From: Fidelibacterota bacterium
GTDB lineage: Bacteria > Fidelibacterota > UBA2242 > JAFGTP01
Assembly (NCBI GenBank): GCA_016934035.1
Contig: JAFGTP010000062.1
Location: 1 to 64,000, forward strand
Direction of reading: 5' to 3'
DNA: 64,000 bases
Below, piece after piece: positions 12,879-27,727 of the stretch. The notes under the pieces were generated by a model. The model was given only the letters and a program-made list of their open reading frames with translations. It was not told where the DNA came from and ran no database searches. The translations under genes were made by a program, and so were the position numbers. How positions within the stretch are numbered: position 1 is the first letter of the stretch; the number at the start of each line of letters is the position of its first letter.

Positions 12879-12883
12879 AACCC

Positions 12884-13810
12884 ATGAAGAAACTAATCAT
12901 TAAAATATTGTTCTATTTCCTGCTATTATTCACCATCATTATAATCAGCATCGGGATTTCAAGTCATATCGTCAAAAAAAGACATTTCAAAAATTTTGAA
13001 ACCGAAAGCAACCTGTTAGTGATGCAAAAGAACCATCAATATGATATGCTGATAATGGGAATCTCTCATGCGAGAAATTTTACTCGATATCACAATCATG
13101 AAATCATTGAAAAGATACTGGATCAGGATATCCTGAATATCGGCCGGGGAAAAGGTAAATGTGGCTCCAGAGAACAGCTGTTTTATCTGGATTATTTTTA
13201 CCATGAAAATAACCATGCCCGACAACTGGTCTATGTGATTTCACCACCATTGTTTTTTTCCGATGCCTTACCCGTTGCTTCCAATACCTTTGACAAGGAA
13301 CCTTTCGAATTGGATTTCATCATTCGTTATCTTCATTTCAAATCGGAAAATAAATTTCAACGAATAGTATCTTATCTTCAAACCAAACTCAGACCGTCAT
13401 GGTTCATCCATCATCCCTCTTCACAAAAAAGTATGGATATAAAACTTGATAAAATTGATCCTGTAGCTGTGGAAAAAGGCCAGAACTATGCCTATGACAG
13501 CCCAACCTTGAAAATGGAAAATTTCGATTTCAATGCCGCCACAATTGAAGAAACAATTGATTTGGCTTTAAGCCAAAAATCCGAAGTCTTCTTAATCATT
13601 ACACCGGCCCTCTTCGGAAAGTGGCGCGGTCATGAATTTGTTGATGAGTTTGGCAAAAAAATGGCGTTGAAAGATGGTGTTCAATATTATGATTTTTCCG
13701 AATCAATCCTGGAGCCGGAATATTATTTTGACCATCACCACTTAAACACAGCTGGGGTTATTTTTTTTACAGAGCACTATTTAAAACCTGTACTTCAAAT
13801 TCAGGAGTGA
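12884..13810 (+). CDS. SGNH-like O-acetylation partner protein, membrane-anchored
   Basis: Protein of 308 aa with one N-terminal hydrophobic anchor (about residues 4-28) and an extracytoplasmic domain. Two features fit the SGNH/AlgJ-AlgX-DltD type of acetyl- or acyl-handling enzymes: GISHARN near residues 59-65, where S61 is a plausible nucleophile, and DHHHLNTAG at 283-291, giving the C-terminal D-x-x-H pair (D283, H286) followed by the common HLN-x-x-G. Overall similarity to named families is weak, so it is described by motif only. It starts five bases after the MBOAT stop. Likely role: receives the acyl group exported by the MBOAT protein and places it on the surface polymer. It ends eight bases from the convergent flippase gene, with no terminator between them. 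Confidence 0.7.
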   Translation: MKKLIIKILFYFLLLFTIIIISIGISSHIVKKRHFKNFETESNLLVMQKNHQYDMLIMGISHARNFTRYHNHEIIEKILDQDILNIGRGKGKCGSREQLFYLDYFYHENNHARQLVYVISPPLFFSDALPVASNTFDKEPFELDFIIRYLHFKSENKFQRIVSYLQTKLRPSWFIHHPSSQKSMDIKLDKIDPVAVEKGQNYAYDSPTLKMENFDFNAATIEETIDLALSQKSEVFLIITPALFGKWRGHEFVDEFGKKMALKDGVQYYDFSESILEPEYYFDHHHLNTAGVIFFTEHYLKPVLQIQE

Positions 13811-13817
13811 CCAGAGT

Positions 13818-15320
13818 TTATTTTTTCAAACCCACTTTTACCAAAACCTCTTGGAACAATTGTTTTTCATCATCATCAAGTCTAAGCAATAGAAGAACCA
13901 TAATAAACAATGAGAAAAACAAAATGCCTCCCAGTGCAATATTAAGCAAAAAATGAGATTGAAACTGCATCTTAAAAATGTAAGTTACAGCCGAGGAAAT
14001 CAGAACTGAAAAAGCCGGTTTCCAATAGGATAGTTTATACGGATGAATTTTTTCAAAATAATAGACCTGGGCTAACCTTAATAAATTGATAATGCTGACA
14101 GAGAGCATCTGAGCAATACCTGCTCCCAAAAGCCCAAATTTAGGGATAAAGAGAACACTAAATAAAATAGTAATAAACAGAGAAATCAAAGAATTATAAA
14201 AAGAAACCTTGACTTTGTTGGTCATAATTAAAATATTGCCAGCCGAGCCAATGGATACATTTACTAATTCTCCTGTCAGCACAATAACCAGCAGCAATTG
14301 CCCTTCGGTAAAATCCTTACCGAAAATAGTTAAAATATCTTTTGCAAAGAGGACAAAAAACATAAACAAACTCAATGAAAAGGTGAAAATCCACTTGGTC
14401 CCTGATTTATAAAAAGACTCTATCAAATCAATTTTTTTCTGTCCGTAAAATTTGGAAATTTTGGGAGCAAAGACCAGATTAAAACTTCGCAGGCTGATGG
14501 TTAGGACCGCAGACACTTTTAAACATATGTCATAAATTCCAATATCCCTTGAAACCATAAAATAACTGATGATATAAACAGGAATTTTATTCTTACTTCT
14601 GATTAAAAAGGTCTGCAGATAAAGTGGCATGGAAAATTTAATCCACTCAACAATATGATAATCAGGTTTTATGGTTCGAATAAGCTGTCCAATATCCTTT
14701 TTAAACCTGGCCATGACCCACAGAATCACCAAAAAATTACTGAAAACATAAAAAAAGATCACCCTGATGAGCCCAATCTTTGTAAAACTGGCAAGGATCA
14801 ATAAAACAAAAACCAATCCCGGTACAAATATGTTCTCGGCTATAACCTGGATTTTTGGCCGCTCAAAGCCTGTAAAAATATTCATAAAAATTGATAACAG
14901 GTTGAGAACCGGCACCAGAGGTATAAAATATCTGAAAACGCTTAAGAGTTCCGGGGCTTTCAAAATTTTTGCAATAGTTCCCGTATAAATGTACAATATC
15001 AAAACAGTGATCATGGAAAAAATCAGCACACTGAGCAGGCTGAAGGCGATTATTCCCTTGACATCCTTATAATTATTTTCAATTCGGTAATGGGAGATAA
15101 ATTTGACAACAGTCTGATCAAACCCAAGTAAAGAAATGGAATTTGCAAATATGATAATGCTCATTCCCAGAGAAAATACACCATAATGATCACTTCCCAG
15201 AGTACGGGTCAGGACCACACTGATGAGGTAATTAATAAAAAAAAAGAAAAAGAATCCGAACCCGGCAATTCCACTTTCCTTTGATATGTTTTTCAATTCT
15301 TTTTGATAGGTATTTTCCAT
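13818..15320 (-). CDS. Second Wzx-like polysaccharide flippase
   Basis: Integral membrane protein of 500 aa with 12-14 predicted helices, belonging to the MATE/Wzx polysaccharide transporter superfamily. The N-terminal block VLTRTLGSDHYGVFSLGMSI and the later LLGAGIAQMLSVSIINLLRL are typical. It is the last gene of the leftward operon that begins with the winged-helix regulator, so it probably flips the lipid-linked repeat unit made by that operon. Sequence similarity to the flippase at 7141-8610 is low by eye, so they are not recent copies. Only about 29 bases separate it from the upstream GNAT-like gene. Start is ATG at 15318-15320. Confidence 0.88.
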   Translation of the reverse strand: MENTYQKELKNISKESGIAGFGFFFFFFINYLISVVLTRTLGSDHYGVFSLGMSIIIFANSISLLGFDQTVVKFISHYRIENNYKDVKGIIAFSLLSVLIFSMITVLILYIYTGTIAKILKAPELLSVFRYFIPLVPVLNLLSIFMNIFTGFERPKIQVIAENIFVPGLVFVLLILASFTKIGLIRVIFFYVFSNFLVILWVMARFKKDIGQLIRTIKPDYHIVEWIKFSMPLYLQTFLIRSKNKIPVYIISYFMVSRDIGIYDICLKVSAVLTISLRSFNLVFAPKISKFYGQKKIDLIESFYKSGTKWIFTFSLSLFMFFVLFAKDILTIFGKDFTEGQLLLVIVLTGELVNVSIGSAGNILIMTNKVKVSFYNSLISLFITILFSVLFIPKFGLLGAGIAQMLSVSIINLLRLAQVYYFEKIHPYKLSYWKPAFSVLISSAVTYIFKMQFQSHFLLNIALGGILFFSLFIMVLLLLRLDDDEKQLFQEVLVKVGLKK

Positions 15321-15349: not shown

Positions 15350-16291
15350 TTATTTTTCTTTCAGCAGTCTGGCAATTCCCAGCCATTTCGGTTTGAACTT
15401 GTAGACGTTCAGATAGGGTGTCTGAATCGCACCGAAGCGTCGAAAAAAGCGTTCAACTCCGGCAATCATGGACCCTTCAAAATTGAATTGATCAACATGC
15501 TGACTGCAAAACTTTATGCCCTCCCAAAGAACATGATAGGCTGCCTGGCTGTTCAAAAATTCCGGGTCTGTTCCGCTAATCAGATAATAGGCCATGACAT
15601 CATCCCAGACAAACAGCTGACAGGAATGAACATTATTTTGAGCATCAATAGCCGCTAACAATTGACCCTGGTTTCTTTGTCGGCAGACGCTATAAATTCT
15701 TTTAATGGTCTCAATTTCACTATTTTTTATGGTAATGCCCTGTTTTTTGAAAGTTTTGATATAAAGAGCGATCAATACATCAATATCATCAATTTCCCTG
15801 ACTTCAAAATCGACTTTACTATTAAAAATCGCTCTTTTGGTTTTGGGATGTAATTCCAATTTTAATTTTTCATGATCTTTAATATCATTCAACAAATAGG
15901 TATAGCGAGTTGTCTGTGAAAAACCCTTCCAGTAAAAAGGCAGCCAGTTGTTTATACTAATGTGAAATTTCAGGTTTATGTAAATCGCAACAGGAAGTTT
16001 TTCAATCAGCGCTTCCATTGCCAAATGTTGTTGGGACAGTTGCATGACATATTTGTCCTTCACTTTCGGAAATAAAATTCCGGCATATTGCGTAAAAGGA
16101 GGCATAACAACCTGCTTTTGACCTAATTTTTCTTTGATAACCACCGGCAGAACAGCTTCAATATTCTTTCCTTTTTCAGCTATGATATATTGATATCGGC
16201 CTGGAGCAACCGCTTCGAGCCACCACGGGTAGCAAAATATATTTCGCTGAGGGGAGTTTTCAATAAATTGTAATATTTTTTCACGATCCAA
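15350..16291 (-). CDS. FemAB/GNAT-type acyltransferase in the glycan operon
   Basis: Cytosolic protein of 313 aa with the double-GNAT layout of the FemAB/Acetyltransf_6 group. Support: RNIFCYPWWLEAVAP near the N-terminus (residues 15-29), a charged central region HPKTKRAIFNS, and FNFEGSMIAGVERFFRRFGA near residue 275-295, the glycine-rich segment usual in these enzymes. Members in exopolysaccharide loci transfer acetyl or aminoacyl groups to amino sugars; acceptor and donor are not visible here. The only start in reach is TTG at 16289-16291, preceded by GCGGGAA. It lies 15 bases after the DegT-like gene, which could provide the amino sugar that it would acylate. Confidence 0.75.
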   Translation of the reverse strand: MDREKILQFIENSPQRNIFCYPWWLEAVAPGRYQYIIAEKGKNIEAVLPVVIKEKLGQKQVVMPPFTQYAGILFPKVKDKYVMQLSQQHLAMEALIEKLPVAIYINLKFHISINNWLPFYWKGFSQTTRYTYLLNDIKDHEKLKLELHPKTKRAIFNSKVDFEVREIDDIDVLIALYIKTFKKQGITIKNSEIETIKRIYSVCRQRNQGQLLAAIDAQNNVHSCQLFVWDDVMAYYLISGTDPEFLNSQAAYHVLWEGIKFCSQHVDQFNFEGSMIAGVERFFRRFGAIQTPYLNVYKFKPKWLGIARLLKEK

Positions 16292-16306: not shown

Positions 16307-17554
16307 TCAATTGATGTTACTTAACCTTTTCCAGATATTATCATCCCAATTGGGAATGTTGATAATTTCACATGTTAATTGCTTGGAATTTATATAGTTA
16401 TCTTTATTTAAATGCTGCAGTTCCCGAAACCCTTCAAAAGACAAACGGTCCCAGTTATAAGGTCCGGCTTCAATGCCATTGTCTGATAAAAGTTCAATGA
16501 CCGTTTTTGGATCTTTGGCCAGAACCGGAAATCTCAAATACCAACTGGGTTCAATATTTCCAGTCACATAATCCGGTATTTGAATATCCTTAAACATTTT
16601 TTTAAAAAATGAGACCGTCTTCTCTTTAATTTCATAATAGAATTTCTTATCCTTTTGAAACTGCGGATAGACATGCTGGAAATAGGTCCGCTTTAAATAT
16701 CCCATCCGTTGAACATTTATTTTAATACTGAAAATTCTGTGAACCCATGAATTAAATATTTTCCTGAAAATAAGTAATGGTTTCGTGCCAGCCAGTTTCA
16801 GTAAAGCCATTGCGGCATTCATTGGGATTATTTTACGGCGGGCAAGGTAAACGATGAGAGCATCGACCCGATCATTCAATCTTCTTTCTTGGGTGTAATT
16901 CATTGATGAGGTTATTTCATGGTATAACAATAACCGAACTAAATCGGATTTTTCTTTATTAAAACTTTCCGGTTTAATCGAATGATAACTCTCCTGCAGT
17001 TCCAGGTCATCATTTCGAATAAAAATCATGCCTCCGTTCATGGTGGAGACCGGTTTATCAAAACCGAAACTGTAGAAATAACAGTCCGATAACTCCTCCA
17101 GACAGTGGTGATCAATCCTACTAAAAAGAGTCTGTGACAGATCATCAATTATCCCAATATCCAACTCTTTGCATTTTTCTTTTATCAGGAGATAGTCAGG
17201 ATTTGGAATTCCATATAAATGGGATAAAATGAGAATGTCAATTTTATTAAAATCAATTTGGCCAATAAGAGTGGTAAAATATTTTTTATCGACATCAAAA
17301 TAATAGGGTTTATTCCCAGATTCCAAGACAGCCTGAGTGACGACAGAACAGGTGAAAGCCTGTAAACCGACGACCAGACTTTTATTTTGCTTATTTTTTA
17401 AATAAGTCAGATACCATTTCAGTGAGGACCTGCCTGAATTAAAAAAGAATTTATTCCGATCTGTCAACAGCTCATCCGGTATGGACCCTGATTGGGTGTC
17501 AATCAGCGCATGTAATTTTTCTCGGTCAATCTTTGGCCTGGCTCTTACAAACAT
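16307..17554 (-). CDS. DegT/DnrJ/EryC1-like PLP-dependent enzyme
   Basis: Fold-type I PLP enzyme of 415 aa, distantly like the sugar aminotransferases of the DegT/DnrJ/EryC1/StrS family. The pattern of that family is recognisable: FNSGRSSLKWYL (38-49) for the N-terminal substrate/PLP loop, LILSHLYGIP (108-117), IIDDLSQ (135-141) for the cofactor Asp-x-x-x-Gln region, and YSFGFDKPVSTMNGG (161-175), where K167 sits at the place of the Schiff-base lysine. The usual GEGG is replaced by MNGG, so this is a divergent member; it may be a sugar aminotransferase or a dehydratase-type relative. It overlaps nothing: one base separates it from the sulfotransferase and 15 from the FemAB-like gene. Confidence 0.72.
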   Translation of the reverse strand: MFVRARPKIDREKLHALIDTQSGSIPDELLTDRNKFFFNSGRSSLKWYLTYLKNKQNKSLVVGLQAFTCSVVTQAVLESGNKPYYFDVDKKYFTTLIGQIDFNKIDILILSHLYGIPNPDYLLIKEKCKELDIGIIDDLSQTLFSRIDHHCLEELSDCYFYSFGFDKPVSTMNGGMIFIRNDDLELQESYHSIKPESFNKEKSDLVRLLLYHEITSSMNYTQERRLNDRVDALIVYLARRKIIPMNAAMALLKLAGTKPLLIFRKIFNSWVHRIFSIKINVQRMGYLKRTYFQHVYPQFQKDKKFYYEIKEKTVSFFKKMFKDIQIPDYVTGNIEPSWYLRFPVLAKDPKTVIELLSDNGIEAGPYNWDRLSFEGFRELQHLNKDNYINSKQLTCEIINIPNWDDNIWKRLSNIN

Positions 17555-17555
17555 T

Positions 17556-18542
17556 TCAACCTTTTAGAAATACTTTTTTTATAACTTCCTGTAATTTTTC
17601 CAGTTCACTATCTTTCAGATAATTGGATTTGGATAAATATAATTCCGGCAAATTGAATTTCTTTTTATATTCGATCTTTAGATTAGTAAGTGACTGATAT
17701 TTTTGAAGAACCACATCAAAAATTTTCTCAGGATTTTGGCAAAATTCTTCATAATAAAATAAATGGTAATTGTTTGAAAAATAATTTTTCAAATCTTCTT
17801 CGATTTGTTTTTCAATAAAGAAGATTTGTTGCACGACCTGCTCAAAAGAGTCCAGGTCCTTGAGCTCATCATATTCTTTCGGTCTGATAGACCACCAGTG
17901 GTTTCTGTCCTGATAAAGTTTATCTCGTGTTTTGATTATAGATTGAGCAACATACAGCGGGTCTCTTTTGATAAATATAAAAAATGCACCGGGAAAAATC
18001 TCTTTCAGCAATCGAATACGCTGTCCGCAATTCATATTTTTAAAAACCAGAGGTCTGTTGAATTTGTTTGTTATTGCCGTTAAAATTTGACCAATTTCCT
18101 GCTTATGTTTTTCACCAACTTCATCAAAATCAACAAAATGCCTTTCCCGTGGCAGCCAACGGTACCAGAAATCGCCGGACTCGCTGGGAGCGTTCATCCC
18201 TTGGGTATCTCCAAAAGAAGATTCAAAACAATCATGGGGCTTATTTTTAAAAAGGATTTCGGAAAGGATACTGGCTGAAAAAAGAACCTGATGCAAATTA
18301 TCCATTAAATTATTGATATAACTGACATTAAAATAATTAGTAAAATATTCATAAAAAATGGTTGATCCAACTCTGGGAGCTCCAATAATAAAAATGGGAG
18401 AATATTGGATGGTTTGTCCCTTGTATTTCCTAAGGCACAGTTTTTCCGGGGGAACAAGAGGCAATGAAATAAGCGTAAAACAAAAAAGTTTTAGTTTTTG
18501 TTTAAATTTTTTAAAAAATCGATTAAAAAAATTACAACTCAA
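17556..18542 (-). CDS. Sulfotransferase-family protein
   Basis: Probable PAPS-dependent sulfotransferase, 328 aa. The 5'-phosphosulfate loop IIGAPRVGST is at residues 52-61, directly after a beta strand. The 3'-phosphate-binding segment FIFIKRDPLYVAQSI, with Arg and a conserved Ser, lies near residues 180-195. These two are the defining motifs of the family. A hydrophobic stretch at 18-30 may anchor the protein at the membrane. The start is TTG at 18540-18542 with AAAGGGA five bases upstream; no ATG is available nearby. Its position in a sugar-polymer operon with a C5-epimerase and deacetylases suggests that it sulfates the polymer or its lipid-linked repeat. Substrate is inferred only. Confidence 0.82.
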   Translation of the reverse strand: MSCNFFNRFFKKFKQKLKLFCFTLISLPLVPPEKLCLRKYKGQTIQYSPIFIIGAPRVGSTIFYEYFTNYFNVSYINNLMDNLHQVLFSASILSEILFKNKPHDCFESSFGDTQGMNAPSESGDFWYRWLPRERHFVDFDEVGEKHKQEIGQILTAITNKFNRPLVFKNMNCGQRIRLLKEIFPGAFFIFIKRDPLYVAQSIIKTRDKLYQDRNHWWSIRPKEYDELKDLDSFEQVVQQIFFIEKQIEEDLKNYFSNNYHLFYYEEFCQNPEKIFDVVLQKYQSLTNLKIEYKKKFNLPELYLSKSNYLKDSELEKLQEVIKKVFLKG

Positions 18543-18563
18543 GTTTTCCCTTTCAATATTGGC

Positions 18564-19907
18564 CTATGGCTTGATACAATCCTTAAATTGGATAAATTTA
18601 ATATCATTCTCCTTTAATCTCCTGATTAAATCCACAAATACTTTCCCCCAGCCGGACTTGTAACCACTAAAAAATTTATTATGCCACAAAAGGTTCAGGG
18701 TTCCATTAAATTTTCCAACTTCTTCGATGAGTGGTATAACTGCATCCAGTGCTGTGTCAACAGCGCAATTCATATACTGCTCATTTTCTAAAGTGATATC
18801 CATAATCATCAGCGGAAATTCCAGAAATTTAAAAGGAATATCCAGCGTGATATTATATGGGTAATAAGGATAACAGTACCCGTTTCTAAAACCAATGAAA
18901 CGGGCAAAACCCATGGATGAATCATACTTCAACCCACTTTGCTCCAGAATTTCAAAGGTCTTGGGCAGATTGATTGCCAGATAATGAAACCTGCCGCCAT
19001 TAATTTCATGGTCAAATTCAAGAATTTCAGTTTCAAACCTCTGATTATTTAATCCGGTCCCAAAACTGCCATGAATACCGATTTCATGACCCTTGCGAAT
19101 AAGATCGTTAATAGTCATTTCTATTTTTTTTGATTTTATGTTGTAATCCGCATTTTTTATGTTGCCGGTTTTTTTATTTGACGGCAGAAAAAAATAAGTC
19201 GCACTAATGCCCATTTTTTCTTCAATTTCCATAATTTTATCAAAATTGAACCAAATATCTTTATGAAATACTTTGCGAAGGACCATTTCCAGGGATTTCA
19301 AAACCTGGAAGTTTTTTAAGTACCAAAAAGCATTATAACCCCATCCTGTCATACATTCATCAATATCATGAGTAACAAGGGTCTGCATTTTTTCATTTCG
19401 CAGGGATATCCCGGTGATGCCGGTTTTTATTATGGCTTCAGCCAAAATATCAAAATAATAATTAACAACCGGAATTTTCAGACAATCAAGTTTGTAGAGT
19501 AAGTGCGATTCTGCCGGAAAACGCCCATATTTGTCCTTGTCCTGGCTGTGCCATTCCTGCCAGGAGGACAGAAAATAAAAAGCCGAAGCAACAATATCAT
19601 AATTAATTGTAATTCCTTTATGACTTTCCGTAACGATTTCCGGGCCATTTCCAGAGTTAAAAAGCAATGGCAGTTTTTGTCCTTTCCAATTGTGCATAGT
19701 ATAATTTTTTAAAACTGGCTGTGCAGCTCGAAAAAAATCCAACACTTCTTCACCGGGTTTTACGGATAGGTATGCTCCATCACTGGCCTCCCCATAGGCA
19801 ATTGAAATATCGGATGTTAATTTGTATACCGAATTAAAATGATCTATGACATAGTGCCATTTCGAAGACAGAATAGTATATTTATCGGGTATTATCAATT
19901 TTAACAT
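18564..19907 (-). CDS. Polysaccharide deacetylase-like protein with long N-terminal domain
   Basis: Protein of 447 aa. An N-terminal domain of about 170 residues, seen in other deacetylases of exopolysaccharide loci, precedes a NodB-like (CE4) domain. Motif 1 is VTHDID (178-183), in place of the usual TFDDG, with two metal/catalytic aspartates; motif 2 is GHEIGIHGS (273-281) with the two histidines. The later segment TLNLLWHNKFFSG would be the region of the last catalytic His. It probably removes N- or O-acetyl groups from a sugar polymer or lipid-linked sugar; no signal peptide is visible, so action in the cytoplasm is likely. Its start overlaps the wecB stop by seven bases, indicating coupled translation. 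Confidence 0.75.
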   Translation of the reverse strand: MLKLIIPDKYTILSSKWHYVIDHFNSVYKLTSDISIAYGEASDGAYLSVKPGEEVLDFFRAAQPVLKNYTMHNWKGQKLPLLFNSGNGPEIVTESHKGITINYDIVASAFYFLSSWQEWHSQDKDKYGRFPAESHLLYKLDCLKIPVVNYYFDILAEAIIKTGITGISLRNEKMQTLVTHDIDECMTGWGYNAFWYLKNFQVLKSLEMVLRKVFHKDIWFNFDKIMEIEEKMGISATYFFLPSNKKTGNIKNADYNIKSKKIEMTINDLIRKGHEIGIHGSFGTGLNNQRFETEILEFDHEINGGRFHYLAINLPKTFEILEQSGLKYDSSMGFARFIGFRNGYCYPYYPYNITLDIPFKFLEFPLMIMDITLENEQYMNCAVDTALDAVIPLIEEVGKFNGTLNLLWHNKFFSGYKSGWGKVFVDLIRRLKENDIKFIQFKDCIKP

Positions 19908-20950
19908 TTGAAACTTTCTTTCAACAGATAGTCAATAATCTGTTCCGCAGCATGGCCATTACCGAATTTTTCAATTATATTATACTCTCCGCATTTAACT
20001 TTTTCTGCATTACAGATTTTTTCTTTATCCGCTCCAACCAGCATGTTCCAGTTGTTTTCCAATGTTTCCGGCCATTCGGTTTCATCTCTGAGGGTGATAC
20101 ACTTTTTATTGAGAAAAAAACTTTCTTTTTGCAAACCGCCGGAATCAGTTAGAACTAAATCACTGTAAAATAACAGATTCAGCATATCCAGGTATCCGAC
20201 CGGTTCTATGATCTGGACATTATTCGGAATTTTCAATTGATTCAGAGCCCGTCGCAATCTCGGATGGGCCGGCAATATTATTTTCTTTTGGAATGAATGG
20301 AAGGCTTCAAGAATAGACAACAAATGATTGGCATTATCGGTATTAGCCGGTCTGTGAATCGTAGTCAGGTAATAATCATGATAAAATGGCCTCCTTTGTC
20401 TTATACTCTTACTGAAAAATTTGACAGAATCGTACATCACATCCCCACTGAATACACTGTGCTCGGAGAGGCCTTCCTTTGCCAAAAAGTCCATGGCTGT
20501 GCGGGTTGGCGCAAATAAAAAATCAGCAATATGATCAGTAACAATTCGATTGATTTCCTCAGGCATATCTCTATTGAAACTACGCAACCCGGCTTCTACG
20601 TGAGCGACTGGGATATTCAGCTTGACAGCCGTCAACGTACCGGCCAGGGTTGAATTGGTGTCGCCATAAACAATCACCAAATTGGGTTTTTCATGGACCA
20701 AGACCGGTTCCAGGGCCTGCAATATTTTTCCTGTTTGTAATCCGTGATGGCCACCTCCTGCTGCCAGATTGTAATGGGGCTGCGGAATCTTTAACTGCTC
20801 AAAAAAAACTTTCGACATATTATCATCATAGTGCTGACCGGTATGGATCATAATTTCATCAATGTCCTTTCTGTTTTTTATCACTCGGGACAGAGTCGCC
20901 ACTTTGATAAATTGAGGTCTGGCACCAACGATACTACAGATTTTCATCAT
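19901..20950 (-). CDS. wecB: UDP-N-acetylglucosamine 2-epimerase (non-hydrolysing)
   Basis: Converts UDP-GlcNAc to UDP-ManNAc in the cytoplasm, providing ManNAc or, after oxidation, ManNAcA for surface polymers. The 349-aa protein has the family signatures: GARPQFIK near the start (8-15), HTGQHYDDNM (36-45), VEAGLRS, MPEEINRIVTDHIAD, TIHRPANTDN and the UDP-binding TDSGGLQKE. Length is a little short of the usual 360-380 but complete. Two ATGs in tandem begin it, overlapping the last 17 bases of the regulator gene. No UDP-ManNAc dehydrogenase (WecC) is in the window, so the product may be used directly or oxidised by an enzyme encoded elsewhere. Confidence 0.93.
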   Translation of the reverse strand: MMKICSIVGARPQFIKVATLSRVIKNRKDIDEIMIHTGQHYDDNMSKVFFEQLKIPQPHYNLAAGGGHHGLQTGKILQALEPVLVHEKPNLVIVYGDTNSTLAGTLTAVKLNIPVAHVEAGLRSFNRDMPEEINRIVTDHIADFLFAPTRTAMDFLAKEGLSEHSVFSGDVMYDSVKFFSKSIRQRRPFYHDYYLTTIHRPANTDNANHLLSILEAFHSFQKKIILPAHPRLRRALNQLKIPNNVQIIEPVGYLDMLNLLFYSDLVLTDSGGLQKESFFLNKKCITLRDETEWPETLENNWNMLVGADKEKICNAEKVKCGEYNIIEKFGNGHAAEQIIDYLLKESFKC

Positions 20951-21482
20951 TTTTTTCCAGAAGAACCAGTTTTGGTTCTATGTTAAAATTTGCTGAGAGC
21001 CTGTCAAATTCCGAAAGAGACAGCATTAGAACATTAATTTTTCTTGAGATTAATCCTTCAGTTTTCGATCTGACCCGTTCTAGTTCTGCTGCATTAATGT
21101 CCTTGCCCACTACAACCAGATCAATCAGCCCGCTATCTTTACCGACAGCATAATCCCCTCGTATAAATGCAAAATGGATCTCACCCAGTTTGTCGATAAT
21201 ATTGGAAAGCACCTGGTCAATTCCGGTGGATTTCAATACTATTTGACGAATATCGAAAAACAACGGGTGTGCGTCATTTGCCTGATACACCTTATTTCTC
21301 CCCACCTTTTGGGATTTTAAAATCTTTGCTTCCTCGAGTTTATTGAGTTCAAGGCGAATGGAATTGGTCGATTCGTTAAATTCTTTTGCCAGTTGTCGAA
21401 GATACCCATGATTATTGGTATTCAGAAAGAATTTCATCAATAGTTTGATTTTGGTTTTAGATGTAATTAGTGATTCTAACAT
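20934..21482 (-). CDS. Winged-helix regulator fused to a nucleotidyltransferase-like domain
   Basis: Protein of 182 aa in two parts. Residues 1-75 form a winged-helix DNA-binding domain (ArsR/MarR-like layout: LRQLAKEFNESTNSIRLELNKL, then a wing with LKSQKVGRNKVYQ). Residues 90-165 resemble a minimal nucleotidyltransferase fold: IRGDYAVGKDSG followed by LIDLVVVG and, later, KINVLMLSLSEF. In active enzymes the second block reads D-x-D; here only one Asp remains (LIDL), so it is probably a ligand-sensing or structural domain. Proteins of this kind head surface-polysaccharide operons in several FCB genomes. It begins the operon leading to wecB and sits just behind a perfect inverted repeat (21489-21519), a likely autoregulatory operator. 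Confidence 0.78.
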   Translation of the reverse strand: MLESLITSKTKIKLLMKFFLNTNNHGYLRQLAKEFNESTNSIRLELNKLEEAKILKSQKVGRNKVYQANDAHPLFFDIRQIVLKSTGIDQVLSNIIDKLGEIHFAFIRGDYAVGKDSGLIDLVVVGKDINAAELERVRSKTEGLISRKINVLMLSLSEFDRLSANFNIEPKLVLLEKNDENL

Positions 21483-21488
21483 AAAAAC

Positions 21489-21519
21489 ATATTTCGAGTT
21501 AATTTATTACTCGAAATAT
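21489..21519. promoter_or_regulatory. Perfect 11-bp inverted repeat, candidate operator of the glycan operon
   Basis: Arms ATATTTCGAGT (21489-21499) and ACTCGAAATAT (21509-21519) are exact reverse complements with a 9-base AT-rich spacer. The nearer arm ends six bases before the ATG of the winged-helix regulator, covering the place of its ribosome-binding site and probably its promoter. A bound regulator would block initiation here. It is not followed by a T-run on either strand, so a terminator is less likely. The link to the regulator is inference. Confidence 0.65.
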
Positions 21520-21553
21520 ATTAAAAATTAAATTTCAATTTTACAATGGAAAT

Positions 21554-22552
21554 TTATAACCGGCCGATATTTTTCAGGGATTTGTATTTGAGCCTGTACA
21601 TCCTCAGGGCATTGAAAATAGTGTCCTGGGAAGCAAATTTTTTGGCATAATCCTGAAAAACCGCGATGCCGGTCATCCTGTACATGAATTCCATCTGTCT
21701 GACGTGGAGACGCTGGTACAAAATCGTGGCCGGGTCAATTTTGGGATACCAATCTGCTTGACAATTATTATACTTGCTCCAGAATCCAATATCATATTCC
21801 GGCAAGACTTTGGCCAGAGTCTCAATTCCATCCCTGATCAGTTGATCAGCCTGGTTGTTTTCAGGAAAAACCCGCTGGTAATCAAAAAGACCGCATAATG
21901 AAAAAACCATTCCATTGAGCACCATTGTCGGCACTTTGGCTGTATATTCCTCATAAAAGGGCCCCCAGGGTGTAAAAGAGGTCACGCCACCTTCCTGAGC
22001 GGAAATGAAAAAAGGTTTCAAAGCTTTATGCGCAAGTTCTGCATACTTTTCATTTTGGGTCAACTGGTAGCCACGCAGGAGAATATTCAGGGCGCGAGCC
22101 TGGGCAAAAGCCGAAGCCCAGGGTCCCGGATTTTGATATTGAGGCAAGGATACATCCGTCAGCCATCTTGCACCAAATTTTTCAGATACCTCAGCATGTT
22201 CAACAAACCAGTCCACAAACTTTAAAAATCGCTCTTTATCTTTCACGGATTGGGTTTTGAGAAAGGTGTGAAAGATGGATATTCCCATCTGCCCGATAGA
22301 AATAGGAAAATAGACATATTCTTTGTCTATAACATCAATGTAAGTCTTGTTTATGGGAATTCCATTTTCGTCAAATTTATTGATCAGCGCCTGGTCTTTG
22401 CCTGTCGATATTCTGGTCTCGTCAAAAAGAAAATAATAATAACCCAGGTATGGGGATTCAAAGTCATCCGCCAGTTGATAACTTTCAGCAGGTCGGCGCA
22501 GGTCCATCCAGAGTTTGTTGAGCATAAATAACTTTTTATTGAGCTTTTTCAT
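21554..22552 (-). CDS. D-glucuronyl C5-epimerase-like protein
   Basis: Protein of 332 aa resembling the C-terminal catalytic (alpha/alpha barrel) domain of D-glucuronyl C5-epimerases, the enzymes that turn GlcA into IdoA in heparan-type chains. Supporting blocks in family order: PISIGQMGISIFHTFLKT (a Tyr or Met is common here), RWLTDVSLPQY, NPGPWASAFAQARALNILLR (the W-x-S-x-x-A-Q-G/A-x-A motif), then PTMVLNGMVFSLCGLFDY. No signal peptide, so action on a lipid-linked or nascent chain in the cytoplasm is likely. Its ATG overlaps the asnB stop (TGATG), so the two proteins are made together. The polymer substrate, a hexuronic acid chain, is inferred from the family. Confidence 0.82.
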   Translation of the reverse strand: MKKLNKKLFMLNKLWMDLRRPAESYQLADDFESPYLGYYYFLFDETRISTGKDQALINKFDENGIPINKTYIDVIDKEYVYFPISIGQMGISIFHTFLKTQSVKDKERFLKFVDWFVEHAEVSEKFGARWLTDVSLPQYQNPGPWASAFAQARALNILLRGYQLTQNEKYAELAHKALKPFFISAQEGGVTSFTPWGPFYEEYTAKVPTMVLNGMVFSLCGLFDYQRVFPENNQADQLIRDGIETLAKVLPEYDIGFWSKYNNCQADWYPKIDPATILYQRLHVRQMEFMYRMTGIAVFQDYAKKFASQDTIFNALRMYRLKYKSLKNIGRL

Positions 22553-24495
22553 CAGGTTTCGATATAATCCTCTAAATTAAATTTCCGCTCGATAAATTTA
22601 TTGCTCTTTATGAACATTTCTTCCCAGATGGCTATTCCCAGAACAATCCATAAAAAATTATAATGCCAGCGTAGCTTTGGCGAGGCCGGATAATGAATAA
22701 TCCGCGCAATATAATCATGATTGAAAATCCCCTGCCTGTCGACAAATTCTTTAGTCAGCACTCGCTTGGCGATTGCGCCGAGGTCTTTTTTAAATTGCAA
22801 ATATGGATTGACGGTAAACCCCCATTTTTTCTTGGTTACAATCTTCGGAGGCAACAGGTCTTTCATGGCTTTACGAAAGAGATATTTGGTCTGATTGTTT
22901 TTTATTTTCAAATCTACGGGAATGGAAAAGCCAAAGTTTACCAGATCAATATCCAGAAAAGGGACTCTTTCCTCAATGGAATTTGCCATGGACATTCTAT
23001 CTTCCACCAGAAGATAATCATTGACCATTTTGGATTGGAATTCTGTCAAGAGTACCCTGTCCAGCATATTAAAATTTTTACTTTGCTCAAAAAAGGGCAC
23101 AAATTCATTTCTGATTTTGCTGACTTCATTCAACATTTTTTTATAAAACAGAGGATGATAGATATCCCTGTAAAAGCCATTGTCAAAATCCCAGACATTT
23201 CTTAGAATCAGATAAAATTTTTCAATCTGGCCAATAGCCAACAGCATTTGCAGACCTCTGCGATACTCATCGAAACGAAGTGTTTTTGTGGAGTTTTGTA
23301 ATTTAAACAAAAAGCCGGCCTTGAAATCCAATAATTTTTTCATCCATCCGGGAACACTGTCATTGATGCGGTTGAAGGGATAGATAAATTTGTGAATATC
23401 ATAACCGGCAAATAATTCATCACCACCCAAACCGCCAAGCACAACCCGAATGTCTTTGCTGACAAATTTGGACATATTGAAACCCTGAAGGAGATTTATT
23501 TTCGGCTCTTCCGCATGCCATAGTACCTGGGGAAACTGTTGCATCGGGTTCATCGATAAACTCAGTGTATGATGATTGGTATTAAAATATTTAGATATTC
23601 GGTCTGCATCAGGAAATTCATCGGTGGGTTCATTAAATCCCAGTGTAAAAGTATTGATTTCCGGTACCCCCAGTTCAGACATTTTCTGAACAATAGTAGA
23701 AGAATCCATGCCACCGGATAAATATACACCCAGGGGAACGTCGCTCATCAACTGCCGTTGGACAGCGGTTTTCAGATGAAAATGAAGTTTTTCAATCGCT
23801 TCATCTTCTTTCATTTCCGGGTTTATTTCCGGTTTGAGGGACCAATACCTTTTTATTGAAATTTGATTATTTTCTAAAACAAGGTAGTGAGCCGGCGGCA
23901 ACCTTTTTATATCAGCAAAGAGGGTCTCGTCTCCCTGAGTGTACCTCAGGTTGATCTGTGAATGTAATGCTTTGTAGTTTATTTGTCTATCCACTCCAGG
24001 ATGCAGCAGAATCGATTTTTGTTCAGAGCCAAAGACCAGGATTCCATTTTGAAAATAATAATGCATGGGCTTTACACCAAAAGGGTCTCTGGCCAGAAAC
24101 AACTTTTCCTTTCGAATATCCAGGAGCGCAAAGGCAAAGATACCATTTAAGCGAGAAAAAAAAGAGGTGTTCCACTCTTCATAAGCATGGACCAGAATTT
24201 CCGTATCAGACTTCGTTCTGAACTGATGACCCTTTTGCTGCAGTTCCCGTTTGATGACTTCAAAATTATATATCTCGCCATTAAAAACCACACAAAGAGA
24301 TTTGTCTTCGTTAAAGATCGGCTGGTCGCCAGTCTCAAGATCAACAATGGATAAGCGACGATGTCCCAGACAAAAACTATGATTCTGGTATACCGATGCC
24401 AAATCAGGACCGCGATGGGCGATGATATCCAGCATGTTTTTCATCAACGCTTCATTGTTAACATCTTTTTCGTATATTCCGCATACACCGCACAT
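22552..24495 (-). CDS. asnB: Asparagine synthase-type glutamine amidotransferase
   Basis: Class II glutamine amidotransferase of 647 aa. Cys2 is the glutaminase nucleophile (MCGVCGIY), with RLSIVD and NGEIYN in the N-terminal Ntn domain; the synthetase domain carries the ATP pyrophosphatase loop YLSGGMDSS (258-266). In the cell AsnB makes asparagine from aspartate. Copies in O-antigen and capsule loci (for example the WbpS/WbtH type) instead amidate the carboxyl group of hexuronic acids. Its position between a glycosyltransferase and a translationally coupled uronate C5-epimerase favours the second role, but the sequence alone does not separate them. It follows the glycosyltransferase gene by two bases. 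ATG start. Confidence 0.92.
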   Translation of the reverse strand: MCGVCGIYEKDVNNEALMKNMLDIIAHRGPDLASVYQNHSFCLGHRRLSIVDLETGDQPIFNEDKSLCVVFNGEIYNFEVIKRELQQKGHQFRTKSDTEILVHAYEEWNTSFFSRLNGIFAFALLDIRKEKLFLARDPFGVKPMHYYFQNGILVFGSEQKSILLHPGVDRQINYKALHSQINLRYTQGDETLFADIKRLPPAHYLVLENNQISIKRYWSLKPEINPEMKEDEAIEKLHFHLKTAVQRQLMSDVPLGVYLSGGMDSSTIVQKMSELGVPEINTFTLGFNEPTDEFPDADRISKYFNTNHHTLSLSMNPMQQFPQVLWHAEEPKINLLQGFNMSKFVSKDIRVVLGGLGGDELFAGYDIHKFIYPFNRINDSVPGWMKKLLDFKAGFLFKLQNSTKTLRFDEYRRGLQMLLAIGQIEKFYLILRNVWDFDNGFYRDIYHPLFYKKMLNEVSKIRNEFVPFFEQSKNFNMLDRVLLTEFQSKMVNDYLLVEDRMSMANSIEERVPFLDIDLVNFGFSIPVDLKIKNNQTKYLFRKAMKDLLPPKIVTKKKWGFTVNPYLQFKKDLGAIAKRVLTKEFVDRQGIFNHDYIARIIHYPASPKLRWHYNFLWIVLGIAIWEEMFIKSNKFIERKFNLEDYIET

Positions 24496-24497
24496 GA

Positions 24498-25754
24498 TTA
24501 ACCTATATATTGTTCAAAAATTCCGACCAGTTTTTGCGTCAAATTTTTTCGATGAAATTGATTGATATAATCGAAGTTGGGCTTCGGTATTTGTCCTATT
24601 TGCCAATTTTTTATCTCGTTTTCAAGAAACTGCTGCACATCTTCCTGATAGTTAAAGGTTTCACCTATATTGGCATGTGTAATGATTTCCCTGATTTCTT
24701 TATTGTCATCGTTACTGATACATAAAATTCGGTTTCCCGAACCCAATAATTGAAAGAGTTTTCCAGTCAGAATTCCCTCACCATTTTTGGATGGTATCGT
24801 CAAAAGAAGAAGGTCCGCGTTTTTTATTTCTGCCTTTACCTGATTCAAAGGAATATATCCATGAAGCCGAATATTTGTACAATGATGGCGCACCATGGAT
24901 TTTTCCAGTTCTCCGTCAAAATTTCCAAAAAAGTCTATGTCTATATTTTCTAGTTTTGATATTGTTCGAATAAAATTTTCCGGCACCTGAAGTTTTGACA
25001 TTGATCCCAGATATTTTATTCGAAAGGTAACGGATGGTTCTTTTTTTTCATGAAAATCATCAAAACCATTATGAATCCAACAGGCATTTTGCGTTTTACT
25101 TTGATATTTTTCAGCCAGAAACTTTGAGACAGTGATAAAAGCATTCGTTCTGGTTAATACTTTCAACTCCAGGGAGCGGCTGATTCTCTGAGCCAGGTTT
25201 GTTTGATAATTGTCTGACATTATAAAAAAATCACTCCAGGGGTCACGAAAATCAGCCACCCATGGCAATCCTGTTTTTTGAGCAATTTTTTGGGCGATTA
25301 ATTGTAGTGAATGCGGGGGTGACGATGAAAAAATCAAATCGATTCCTTCATTTTTTACAATCTCCCGGCCCTTTTTTACAGCAAAGGGATACCAGCCAAT
25401 CCGGGCATCAGGAATAAAAAAATTAGCCCGAATAAATTTTGTTATTTTGCTAAACAAACTTTTTTTTGAATCAGCCATCACGAAAGTGTTAATTTTTTTT
25501 TCAGTTTTTTTACCTTTCTGGAAAAACTTATAAACAGCAAAGGGTTCGATCGATTTGGTCTTGAAGACTTTGCATTCGGCTGGTATATCTCTTTCCAGTG
25601 TCTCGTCAATGGCCGGATATTCACCATCTTTGACAGTCAGCACAATGGGTTGCCAACCAAATTGCGGTAAATATTTAGCAAACTTTAAAACCCTCTGAAC
25701 GCCGGGCCCACCGGATGGCGGCCAGTAGTATGTTATTATCAAAACTTTTTTCAT
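24498..25754 (-). CDS. GT-B fold glycosyltransferase (GT4-like)
   Basis: Glycosyltransferase of 418 aa with the two-Rossmann-domain layout of GT4-type enzymes. The N-terminal YYWPPSGGPGVQRVLKFAKY (about residues 9-28) and WQPIVLT define a subgroup common in exopolysaccharide loci; VADFRDPWSD follows in the acceptor domain. The C-terminal domain has LGSMSKLQVPENFIRTI and TGKLFQLLGSGNRIL, where the nucleotide-sugar would bind; the usual E-x-7-E motif is weak (GEGILTGKLFQLL). No membrane helix. It sits two bases ahead of asnB and five after the GT2 gene in the same transcript. Donor and acceptor cannot be told. Confidence 0.85.
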   Translation of the reverse strand: MKKVLIITYYWPPSGGPGVQRVLKFAKYLPQFGWQPIVLTVKDGEYPAIDETLERDIPAECKVFKTKSIEPFAVYKFFQKGKKTEKKINTFVMADSKKSLFSKITKFIRANFFIPDARIGWYPFAVKKGREIVKNEGIDLIFSSSPPHSLQLIAQKIAQKTGLPWVADFRDPWSDFFIMSDNYQTNLAQRISRSLELKVLTRTNAFITVSKFLAEKYQSKTQNACWIHNGFDDFHEKKEPSVTFRIKYLGSMSKLQVPENFIRTISKLENIDIDFFGNFDGELEKSMVRHHCTNIRLHGYIPLNQVKAEIKNADLLLLTIPSKNGEGILTGKLFQLLGSGNRILCISNDDNKEIREIITHANIGETFNYQEDVQQFLENEIKNWQIGQIPKPNFDYINQFHRKNLTQKLVGIFEQYIG

Positions 25755-25759
25755 GAGGA

Positions 25760-26794
25760 TTATTTATAATATTTTTTAACAAAACCGGTGTACTCGTCTT
25801 TGCCCAGAATTTTTCTACGAATGTAATTGATGGTGAACCCATACCCATAGGCAAAAACCTGGCAAACAGCCACAACCGGTGATAACAGGGCAGCCCTGCT
25901 GTCTTTGTATTTCTTAAAGGAATCATAAATGATAAAGATGAACAACAAAAAAGCCAGCAATGTGGCGCCGGTCCATAATTCCGTTGTCACCCCGGTCAGC
26001 AGTGTAAATAAAGTCAGCAAAGTATATCCCACAGATCCAATGGCCGGTATAAAATGCAGTGGTTCCAGAATACCCTGATCCAGCATAGTTAGATTAATTC
26101 GGGCAACTCCCCAGTTAAACATCTGACGGAAAAATTTTTTCAGACTGGTCCGGCGCTTATGATAGACTTTTGCATCCGGTATCGGAATCACTTTAGCACC
26201 GCTGGCAACAATTCGCCGGCTAAATTCCAGGTCCTGTCCATGACGCAATGTTCCCATACCGCCCAAGGTTTCATAAATTGTCCGTTTAATTCCCATATTG
26301 AAACTGCGTGGATAATATTTGGCCAGTTTCTTCTTGGAATGGCCGCGCATACCGCCGGTGGTTAAAAAGGATGTCATGGAATAATCAATGGCTTTTTGCA
26401 GGGGTGTAAAATTTGGCAACACGCCATCAGGCCCGCCAAAGGCATCAGGTTTCTCACTTTCGATGGCCTTTTCCAGTTCTTTCAACCAGTTTTTATCTGC
26501 AATACAATCGGAATCTATAAAAAGGAAATATTCACCTGCAGCCTGGGCCATACCAAAGTTTCTCGCCGGGCCTGGTCCTTCGTGATCTCTTTTAAAGAAA
26601 CGAATTTGAAAGGTCATCCGATGAATGAAGTTTTCGATAAGTTTTTCAGTCTCATCGGTTGAACCATCATCGACAATAATAACTTCAAATTTACTTTTAT
26701 CAATTTCCAGGGCATTAAAAGATTCAATCAGTTCCACCAGTTCACCGGATCGATTGAAAGAAGGAACAATAATAGAAAATAGAAATTCCGACAT
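25760..26794 (-). CDS. Family 2 glycosyltransferase with C-terminal membrane helices
   Basis: GT-A fold glycosyltransferase of 344 aa. The nucleotide-binding start SIIVPSFNRSGELVELI (7-23) leads to VDDGSTDET (41-49); the metal-binding DxD is DSD at 94-96 (LFIDSDC). FNMGIKRTIYETLGGM is the usual acceptor-side block, followed by GQDLEFSRR with the catalytic-base region (ED-like). After about residue 240 come two hydrophobic helices, so the enzyme works at the inner face of the cytoplasmic membrane, probably on a polyprenyl-linked acceptor. ATG start, fifteen bases after the next GT2 gene. Substrate unknown. Confidence 0.88.
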   Translation of the reverse strand: MSEFLFSIIVPSFNRSGELVELIESFNALEIDKSKFEVIIVDDGSTDETEKLIENFIHRMTFQIRFFKRDHEGPGPARNFGMAQAAGEYFLFIDSDCIADKNWLKELEKAIESEKPDAFGGPDGVLPNFTPLQKAIDYSMTSFLTTGGMRGHSKKKLAKYYPRSFNMGIKRTIYETLGGMGTLRHGQDLEFSRRIVASGAKVIPIPDAKVYHKRRTSLKKFFRQMFNWGVARINLTMLDQGILEPLHFIPAIGSVGYTLLTLFTLLTGVTTELWTGATLLAFLLFIFIIYDSFKKYKDSRAALLSPVVAVCQVFAYGYGFTINYIRRKILGKDEYTGFVKKYYK

Positions 26795-26809
26795 TGATAA
26801 ATTCCTGAA

Positions 26810-27727
26810 TTATTTATTTTTATTAAAATATGTAATCAATTCACAAATCAAACCGATGGAAAACATTTGGATACCGAGAATAATCATCAGTGCCCCAAGG
26901 AGCAGCATGGCAATATGAAGCTGAAAACTATGTCCAAAACCAAATTTTAAAACCAAAATGTAGACTTCCGCCAAGATTCCGCCGGAGATAAAAATGGTTC
27001 CCCAGGCACCAAAAAAATGCATGGGCCGTTTAAAATATTCCGTGACAAATTTTATCGTAATCAAATCAAAAAAGCCACGCCAAAAGCGACTGATGCCATA
27101 TTTTGTTTCGCCATATTTTCGTTCAAAGTGCCGGACTTTCATTTCTCCGCTGGTAAATCCCTGCTGCTTTGCCAGAACAGGAATATAGCGATGCATCTCA
27201 CCATAGACAACGACATTTTTGACTACGATGGATTTATAAACCTTCAATCCATTATTCGTATCATGCAGTTTGATTCCGGTAAGTATTCTTGTAAAGAAGT
27301 TATAAATCTTTGAGGTGTGTTTTTTTATAAACTTGTCTTTACGATCCTGCTTCCAGCCTGAAACCAAATCAACACCAGTTTCTTTGATTTGTTTGACCAT
27401 ATCCGGTATTGCATAAGGATCATCCTGCAAATCCCCATCAATTGTGGCAACATAATCACCATCAGCAATTTGAAAACCCCGGTTAAGAGCCGCAGCTTTA
27501 CCCTGATTGGCGATCAATTTTTCGACTATAATGTTTTTATTTTCGCAGGCTAGTTTTTCTTCAACCTCAACAGATCCGTCTTTTGAGCCATCATCAACGA
27601 AAATCAAATTATAATCATATTCAGAATTATCCAGAGCATCACACAACTGACGATGCAATTCAAACAGTGATTCAACTTCATTGTAGACAGGAATGACGAC
27701 AGATATCTTTTCTTTTGTATTATTCAA
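26810..27727 (-). CDS. Polyprenyl-phosphate glycosyltransferase, GT2 (CsbB/GtrB/DPM1-like)
   Basis: GT2 enzyme of 305 aa with two C-terminal transmembrane helices, the layout of CsbB, GtrB and ArnC, which load a sugar from its nucleotide onto undecaprenyl phosphate at the inner face of the membrane. Motifs: VVIPVYNEVESL (10-21), FVDDGSKDGS (43-52), ATIDGDLQDDP (94-104) with the metal-binding DGD, SGWKQDRKD, and the helical end GTIFISGGILAEVYILVLKF. The start is TTG at 27725-27727, behind GGGGAG and overlapping the end of the LolB-like gene by eight bases. In Bacillus, CsbB supplies the lipid-linked sugar used by YfhO; three YfhO-type proteins are encoded in this locus, so a similar pathway is proposed. 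Confidence 0.88.
   Translation of the reverse strand: MNNTKEKISVVIPVYNEVESLFELHRQLCDALDNSEYDYNLIFVDDGSKDGSVEVEEKLACENKNIIVEKLIANQGKAAALNRGFQIADGDYVATIDGDLQDDPYAIPDMVKQIKETGVDLVSGWKQDRKDKFIKKHTSKIYNFFTRILTGIKLHDTNNGLKVYKSIVVKNVVVYGEMHRYIPVLAKQQGFTSGEMKVRHFERKYGETKYGISRFWRGFFDLITIKFVTEYFKRPMHFFGAWGTIFISGGILAEVYILVLKFGFGHSFQLHIAMLLLGALMIILGIQMFSIGLICELITYFNKNK

Follow-up and report, generated by a model that had tools for sequence, protein, structure and literature searches.

The window (the whole 64,000-nucleotide stretch analysed here, from contig JAFGTP010000062.1 of a Fidelibacterota bacterium) contains a run of genes that can be assigned with moderate confidence to a pathway resembling the Wbp/Vim pathway of Porphyromonas gingivalis and Tannerella forsythia with added sulfation and C5-epimerization, the product being an aminoacylated, sulfated diamino-uronic sugar. 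The run comprises 14 co-directional minus-strand genes, from 29,874 down to 13,818, in the order tetratricopeptide-repeat protein, small protein, two family 2 glycosyltransferases (GT2), family 4 glycosyltransferase (GT4), AsnB-type amidotransferase, C5-epimerase, helix-turn-helix (HTH)-nucleotidyltransferase protein, 2-epimerase, deacetylase, sulfotransferase, DegT protein, FemAB protein and flippase. Adjacent genes overlap or are separated by at most 29 bp, the sole exception being a gap of 71 bp between the C5-epimerase and HTH genes. The source assembly (4.2 Mb, 69 contigs, 88.6% complete) holds the window on its contig C15. A sequence-only reading of the window had noted a deacetylase-like protein, a sulfotransferase and a C5-epimerase within 5 kb, flanked by glycosyltransferases, and had likened the set to heparan sulfate modification. 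The three open reading frames lie where it placed them, all on the minus strand, with matching domain models, and the GT4 and two GT2 genes are indeed beside them; it had overlooked the AsnB-type gene that abuts that of the epimerase, as well as the FemAB and DegT genes immediately downstream.

Predicted enzymes of the gene run

The identities of the genes are established by homology, residues and gene neighbourhoods. The 2-epimerase (19901-20950), previously read as wecB, has UDP-2,3-diacetamido-2,3-dideoxyglucuronic acid (UDP-GlcNAc3NAcA) 2-epimerases as its best solved relatives (PDB 8sxv family; 354 bits, compared with 141 bits for Escherichia coli WecB). A high score is also obtained with the archaeal UDP-N-acetylglucosamine (UDP-GlcNAc) epimerase 4neq (311 bits), so the argument for a WbpI-type enzyme rests on residues reported to govern the choice of substrate. 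UDP-GlcNAc enzymes have Arg, His/Gln and Leu/Met where the UDP-GlcNAc3NAcA enzyme has Trp307, Tyr96 and Ala18 (PMC10622841; T. thermophilus numbering), and the window enzyme has W293, Y95 and V17 at these positions, the last being Val in place of Ala18. The Arg of WecB contacts the C3 hydroxyl of UDP-GlcNAc; its replacement by W293 led to rejection of the WecB identity despite a score over the TIGR00236 (wecB) cut-off. The gene is predicted to encode a UDP-GlcNAc3NAcA 2-epimerase of the WbpI type, pointing to 2,3-diamino-2,3-dideoxy-mannuronic acid rather than N-acetylglucosamine (GlcNAc) or N-acetylmannosamine as the amino sugar.

The C5-epimerase (21554-22552, 332 aa) matches PF06662 (C5-epim_C) with 140.1 bits against a curated cut-off of 23.3, and its best PDB relatives are zebrafish and human Glce (4pw2/6hzz, E 3.5e-19 to 1.7e-17). 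The catalytic residues of human Glce are E499, Y500, N510, Y560 and Y578 (PMC13308652); all five are kept, as E202, Y203, N213, Y261 and Y279. The protein comprises the helical catalytic domain only, with no obvious signal sequence. As judged from its sequence, this is a genuine Glce-family C5-epimerase with complete catalytic residues, in line with its earlier description as glucuronyl C5-epimerase-like.

The sulfotransferase (17556-18542) carries both motifs for 3'-phosphoadenosine 5'-phosphosulfate (PAPS), GAPRVGST and RDPLYVAQS, and matches PF13469 (52.8 bits, cut-off 27), so that its earlier classification as PAPS-type stands; it is designated type A here. A search of the PDB with the single sequence found nothing. 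By profile and a weak model, the closest structural families are the tyrosylprotein (TPST) and CurM sulfotransferases, with NDST1 in 14th place. The model has a predicted local distance difference test (pLDDT) score of 57 and was used solely for confirming the sulfotransferase fold.

The deacetylase (18564-19907) combines DUF7033 with a NodB/CE4-type N-deacetylase domain and scores 169.7 bits (E 8e-50) against the VimE model NF053580, a family match only, as the equivalog cut-off is 440. His180, Asp181, Asp183, His279, His308 and His409 are invariant in an alignment of 14 homologues, which fits a NodB-type metal site. The single sequence returned only noise from the PDB and the family profile weakly matched chitin deacetylases; an AlphaFold model built from four sequences (pLDDT 36) was discarded. 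The FemAB/GNAT-fold aminoacyltransferase (15350-16291; PF02388 and PF13480) is VimA-like, with 29 bits to TIGR03019, a model that VimA also matches (PMC7468200), and its family profile finds the Lipid II:glycine glycyltransferase 6snr and aminoacyl-tRNA-dependent peptide synthases in the PDB. The AsnB-type glutamine amidotransferase (22552-24495), WbpS/eps_aminotran_1-like, scores 442 bits to TIGR03108 (below the cut-off of 816.9) and 450 bits to TIGR01536 (above the cut-off), and amidation of a uronic acid is proposed as its role.

A similar set of enzymes makes 2-N-seryl-3-N-acetylglucuronamide in P. gingivalis, where the proposed roles are deacetylation for VimE and addition of Ser to the freed amine for VimA, and the AsnB-type WbpS makes the uronamide; in T. 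forsythia Gly is added instead of Ser (PMC7468200), and the mannuronic form there goes with a predicted epimerase (PMC7468200, PMC13086638).

Wbp genes, sulfate activation and recurring neighbourhoods

Another contig of the same genome (C27 of genome G000; L162:12700-19606) carries a putative wbpE, wbpD, wbpB, a 3'-phosphoadenosine 5'-phosphate phosphatase gene, cysC, cysD and cysN as one operon. WbpB scores 379 bits against PDB 3oa2 and the WbpD-type acetyltransferase 209 bits against 3mqg; wbpE encodes a DegT-family protein adjoining wbpD and wbpB that hits only related aminotransferase models in NCBIfam, below cut-off. The search for PAPS synthesis genes suggested by the sequence-only reading was thus positive, with cysC, cysD and cysN encoded in the genome. 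In two other genomes that carry a sulfotransferase A-FemAB-deacetylase cassette, cysC lies beside wbpE/D/B (G005, L165) or cysC/D/N beside wbpB/D (G271, L171). In addition, three Calditrichota loci (L143, L145 and L146) have wbpE next to the cassette, L111 has wbpD next to the deacetylase gene, and L061 has both wbpB and wbpD next to the C5-epimerase gene. These neighbourhoods tie sulfation to Wbp sugars better than any single annotation does.

Thirty-four deacetylase loci were surveyed, a partner being counted if it lay within five genes. FemAB is the most frequent recognized partner (19 of 34), and a sulfotransferase of type A or type B is near the deacetylase in 15 (the window and 14 others). 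Type A, the window's type, occurs with FemAB in nine of ten deacetylase loci, the exception (L144) ending at a contig edge, compared with none of five for type B (Fisher p = 0.002, a descriptive value as the loci are related). We take the presence of FemAB as a sign that the amine is aminoacylated and that sulfotransferase A transfers to oxygen; in the window the free amine is probably aminoacylated and not N-sulfated. In loci lacking FemAB, N-sulfation might be carried out by sulfotransferase B, an assignment weakened by the type B genomes G217 and G066, in which APS-kinase (adenosine 5'-phosphosulfate kinase) matches are short only. No clear link between wbp and PAPS genes was seen in the stretches read, some of them short, of the type B genomes G246, G272 and G111.

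These neighbourhoods bear on a heparan-like product, in which a backbone of glucuronic acid (GlcA) and GlcNAc would be N-deacetylated, N-sulfated by the sulfotransferase and C5-epimerized to iduronic acid (IdoA). The Glce-family epimerase with its complete active site, the proximity of deacetylase and sulfotransferase in the window and 14 other loci, and the occurrence of C5-epimerase, deacetylase and sulfotransferase together in L066, L069 and L108 are consistent with such a polymer, as are the N-sulfated glycosaminoglycan-like exopolymers reported for Pontiella with PF13469 sulfotransferases (PMC7356697). However, a FemAB partner would use up the freed amino group, the epimerase acting on the amino sugar is of the WbpI type, a UDP-glucose dehydrogenase is not found in the 88.6% complete assembly, the sulfotransferase is nearest to the tyrosylprotein and CurM families by a weak model, and the cassettes of deacetylase and sulfotransferase A mostly lack a C5-epimerase. 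A heparan-like polymer is therefore considered very unlikely for the window, and was rejected as the best explanation because the epimerase is WbpI-type and FemAB is a partner. The comparison with heparan sulfate thus finds little support in the set, in which the deacetylase is VimE-like and not NDST-like; of the sulfated, epimerized uronic acid polymer that had been envisaged, a sulfated uronic acid-containing glycan is still the likely product.

A C5-epimerase, a deacetylase and a type B sulfotransferase follow each other directly, free of FemAB, at L069:9980-13223 and L108:7198-10475. Compared with the window, this set is the more promising candidate for heparan-like N-deacetylation, N-sulfation and epimerization.

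In Neomarinimicrobiota, Calditrichota, Cloacimonadota, KSB1 and one Saprospiraceae genome, the C5-epimerase gene mostly follows directly on a GT4 gene, with variable genes downstream; it is the constant part of such loci and the other members of the enzyme set are not. As the adjacency of epimerase and GT4 recurs across several phyla and the deacetylase and sulfotransferase are close together in 15 of the 34 loci, the grouping of these enzymes is not due to chance.

An alternative reading has two independent modules side by side, GT4-C5-epimerase-AsnB acting on the GlcA of an ordinary Wzx-dependent exopolysaccharide, and WbpI-deacetylase-sulfotransferase-FemAB acting on another sugar or glycan. 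The conservation of GT4-C5-epimerase across phyla without the cassette, the cassettes with no C5-epimerase nearby (L112, L113, L115, L116, L143, L145 and L146) and the 71 bp after the C5-epimerase gene, the widest gap of the run, all point in this direction. Against this, all the genes are co-directional and close together, the deacetylase gene directly follows that of the C5-epimerase in L066, L069 and L108, and wbpB and wbpD adjoin the C5-epimerase gene in L061, so that this arrangement appears unlikely.

Several variants of the C5-epimerase loci were observed. An AsnB of the window's type touches the C5-epimerase gene in L054-L057, as in the window, and the C5-epimerases of these loci are divergent, with two catalytic positions altered (N to D in VLDG and Y to F in RFNLC). 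Genes for a PIG-L deacetylase and an ATP-grasp protein adjoin the C5-epimerase gene in L055-L057 and are perhaps another deacetylate-then-ligate pair. In nine loci a divergent AsnB-like protein of about 620 aa (cluster c5; L072:10993-12861 and relatives) directly follows the C5-epimerase; for the single member searched, Pfam gave no match and amidotransferase models matched only weakly. One C5-epimerase match (G031:C6:50516-51478, L026) contains ten in-frame stop codons and is apparently a decayed or frameshifted copy.

Proposed pathway and points weighing on it

From these gene identities we infer the substrates, order of steps, product and use of the favoured Wbp/Vim-like pathway as follows. 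WbpA (not found in the assembly), followed by the WbpB, WbpE and WbpD encoded on C27, would supply UDP-GlcNAc3NAcA, which the WbpI-type epimerase of the window would convert to the manno form. The VimE-like deacetylase would then expose the 2-amine, to which the FemAB protein would attach an amino acid in the manner of VimA, and the AsnB-type enzyme would amidate a uronic acid. After assembly of the oligosaccharide by the glycosyltransferases, the Glce-family enzyme would invert C5 of a uronic acid, converting D-GlcA to L-IdoA or the D-manno to the L-gulo form, and the type A sulfotransferase would use PAPS to yield an O-sulfated glycan for flipping by Wzx. The expected product is a cytoplasmically assembled, lipid-linked surface oligosaccharide containing a Wbp/Vim-type sugar, which may serve as a surface polysaccharide or as the anchor of type IX secretion system (T9SS) cargo.

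The anchor role, in which the product would be a sulfated counterpart of the SAGA/A-LS linker of P. gingivalis, is a narrower form of the Wbp/Vim-like assignment, and the confidences in the two overlap. The genome has 143 matches to T9SS sorting domains, 140 of them over cut-off (sorting domains alone being counted), and its putative Wbp/Vim-like gene set is full except for WbpA. No observation connects the locus with secreted proteins, few members of the phylum have VimE-like genes, and we know of no sulfated linking sugar. The anchor role is thus a tentative possibility. As VimE-like genes occur in just 21 of 245 genomes from the phylum, a surface polysaccharide is no less likely. The most specific version, in which a Glce-epimerized (L-gulo or L-ido), sulfated and aminoacylated 2,3-diamino-uronamide anchors T9SS cargo and its sugar genes share one operon with the PAPS supply, seems quite unlikely.

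Several points weigh against the proposed pathway. No member of the NDP-sugar dehydrogenase (WbpA/Ugd) family, which would include the UDP-glucose dehydrogenase that the sequence-only reading suggested seeking, exceeds the cut-off in the 88.6% complete assembly, while the family is present in 26 of 28 relatives and in all nine other genomes with a C5-epimerase of this family. The absence is probably an assembly gap, since wbpB, wbpD and wbpE are present and WbpB uses the product of WbpA; the same consideration led us to reject the view that lack of the dehydrogenase implies lack of uronic acid. Clear wbp genes beside the APS kinase gene were not seen in the stretches read, some short, of the cassette-bearing genomes G245 and G101. 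The rarity of VimE-like genes noted above means that the pathway is not a general T9SS anchor in the phylum. The VimE, WbpS and femAB models were all matched below their equivalog cut-offs, and the structural model of the deacetylase is unreliable. Finally, many C5-epimerase loci have none of these pathway genes, so the substrate of the C5-epimerase may be unrelated to the pathway. As the VimE equivalog cut-off is not reached and WbpA is not found, the system is classed as working like Wbp/Vim and not as a member.

Known systems, flanking genes and implications

The Wbp/Vim systems that produce the T9SS linking sugar of P. gingivalis and T. forsythia (PMC7468200, PMC13086638) share with this genome WbpB and WbpD, a putative WbpE, a WbpI-type epimerase, a VimE-family deacetylase, a FemAB/VimA-like transferase, a WbpS-like amidotransferase and many T9SS sorting domains. 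The window differs in adding a PAPS sulfotransferase and a Glce-family C5-epimerase, and the genome in joining wbp and PAPS synthesis genes in one operon, in the missing WbpA and in the sub-equivalog matches to VimE and WbpS. Heparan sulfate modification (Glce, NDST and O-sulfotransferases) has in common the five Glce catalytic residues, a PAPS sulfotransferase and an N-deacetylase; in contrast, the window epimerase is the catalytic helical domain only, the deacetylase is a separate VimE-type enzyme and not NDST, the partners are FemAB, AsnB and WbpI, and UDP-glucose dehydrogenase is not found.

The bacterial glucuronyl C5-epimerase RED65_08024 of Bermanella marisrubri, for which a GlcE-like mechanism is reported (Raedts 2013, as cited in PMC4432689 and PMC13308652), is likened to the window enzyme by that mechanism. 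In Halobacterium salinarum, Agl32 and two sulfotransferases produce a sulfated IdoA N-glycan (PMC13308652, PMC11980604). The logic of epimerizing and sulfating a short glycan is shared, but the catalytic residues of GlcE are missing from Agl32 (PMC13308652) and the glycan is an archaeal N-glycan. Pontiella shares a bacterial sulfated polysaccharide with PF13469 sulfotransferases, and the available portion of its report does not describe an epimerase or a Wbp/Vim set (PMC7356697). Literature joining T9SS, a linking sugar and a sulfotransferase was not found in the library searched, which is no proof of novelty.

The GT4 gene (24498-25754) is a near-constant neighbour of the C5-epimerase in other genomes; the two GT2 genes (25760-27727) are assigned by domain matches and synteny, and the Wzx-type flippase (13818-15320) by PF01943. 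The divergent DegT/pyridoxal phosphate aminotransferase-like protein (16307-17554) scores 55.6 bits to PF01041 and has Lys167 in the usual Lys context. The small HTH-nucleotidyltransferase-like protein (20934-21482), 64-67% identical to its counterparts in L041/L062/L069/L072, shows greater conservation across phyla than most adjoining proteins and is found again next to the deacetylase cassettes of L142-L146. On the opposite strand to the run, an MBOAT and DltD/SGNH-like pair (11415-13810, plus strand) has a possible role in O-acetylation. Three large YfhO-like membrane proteins are encoded in near-tandem beside the cluster (2112-4631, 4641-7115 and 8644-11193), and a relative is a frequent companion of GT4-C5-epimerase in other genomes.

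The gene set described here makes a sulfated diamino-uronic acid glycan open to testing in bacteria that are difficult to cultivate, and the analysis adds new bacterial enzymes with intact active sites to the Glce family. The linkage of Wbp sugar genes and sulfate activation in one operon was not found described in the literature searched. The results suggest that several further phyla have sulfated relatives of the Wbp/Vim route, which is known from two oral pathogens. Two sulfotransferase types can be told apart. Type B, which occurs with C5-epimerase and deacetylase where FemAB is absent, is the stronger candidate for a bacterial set of N-deacetylase, N-sulfotransferase and epimerase.

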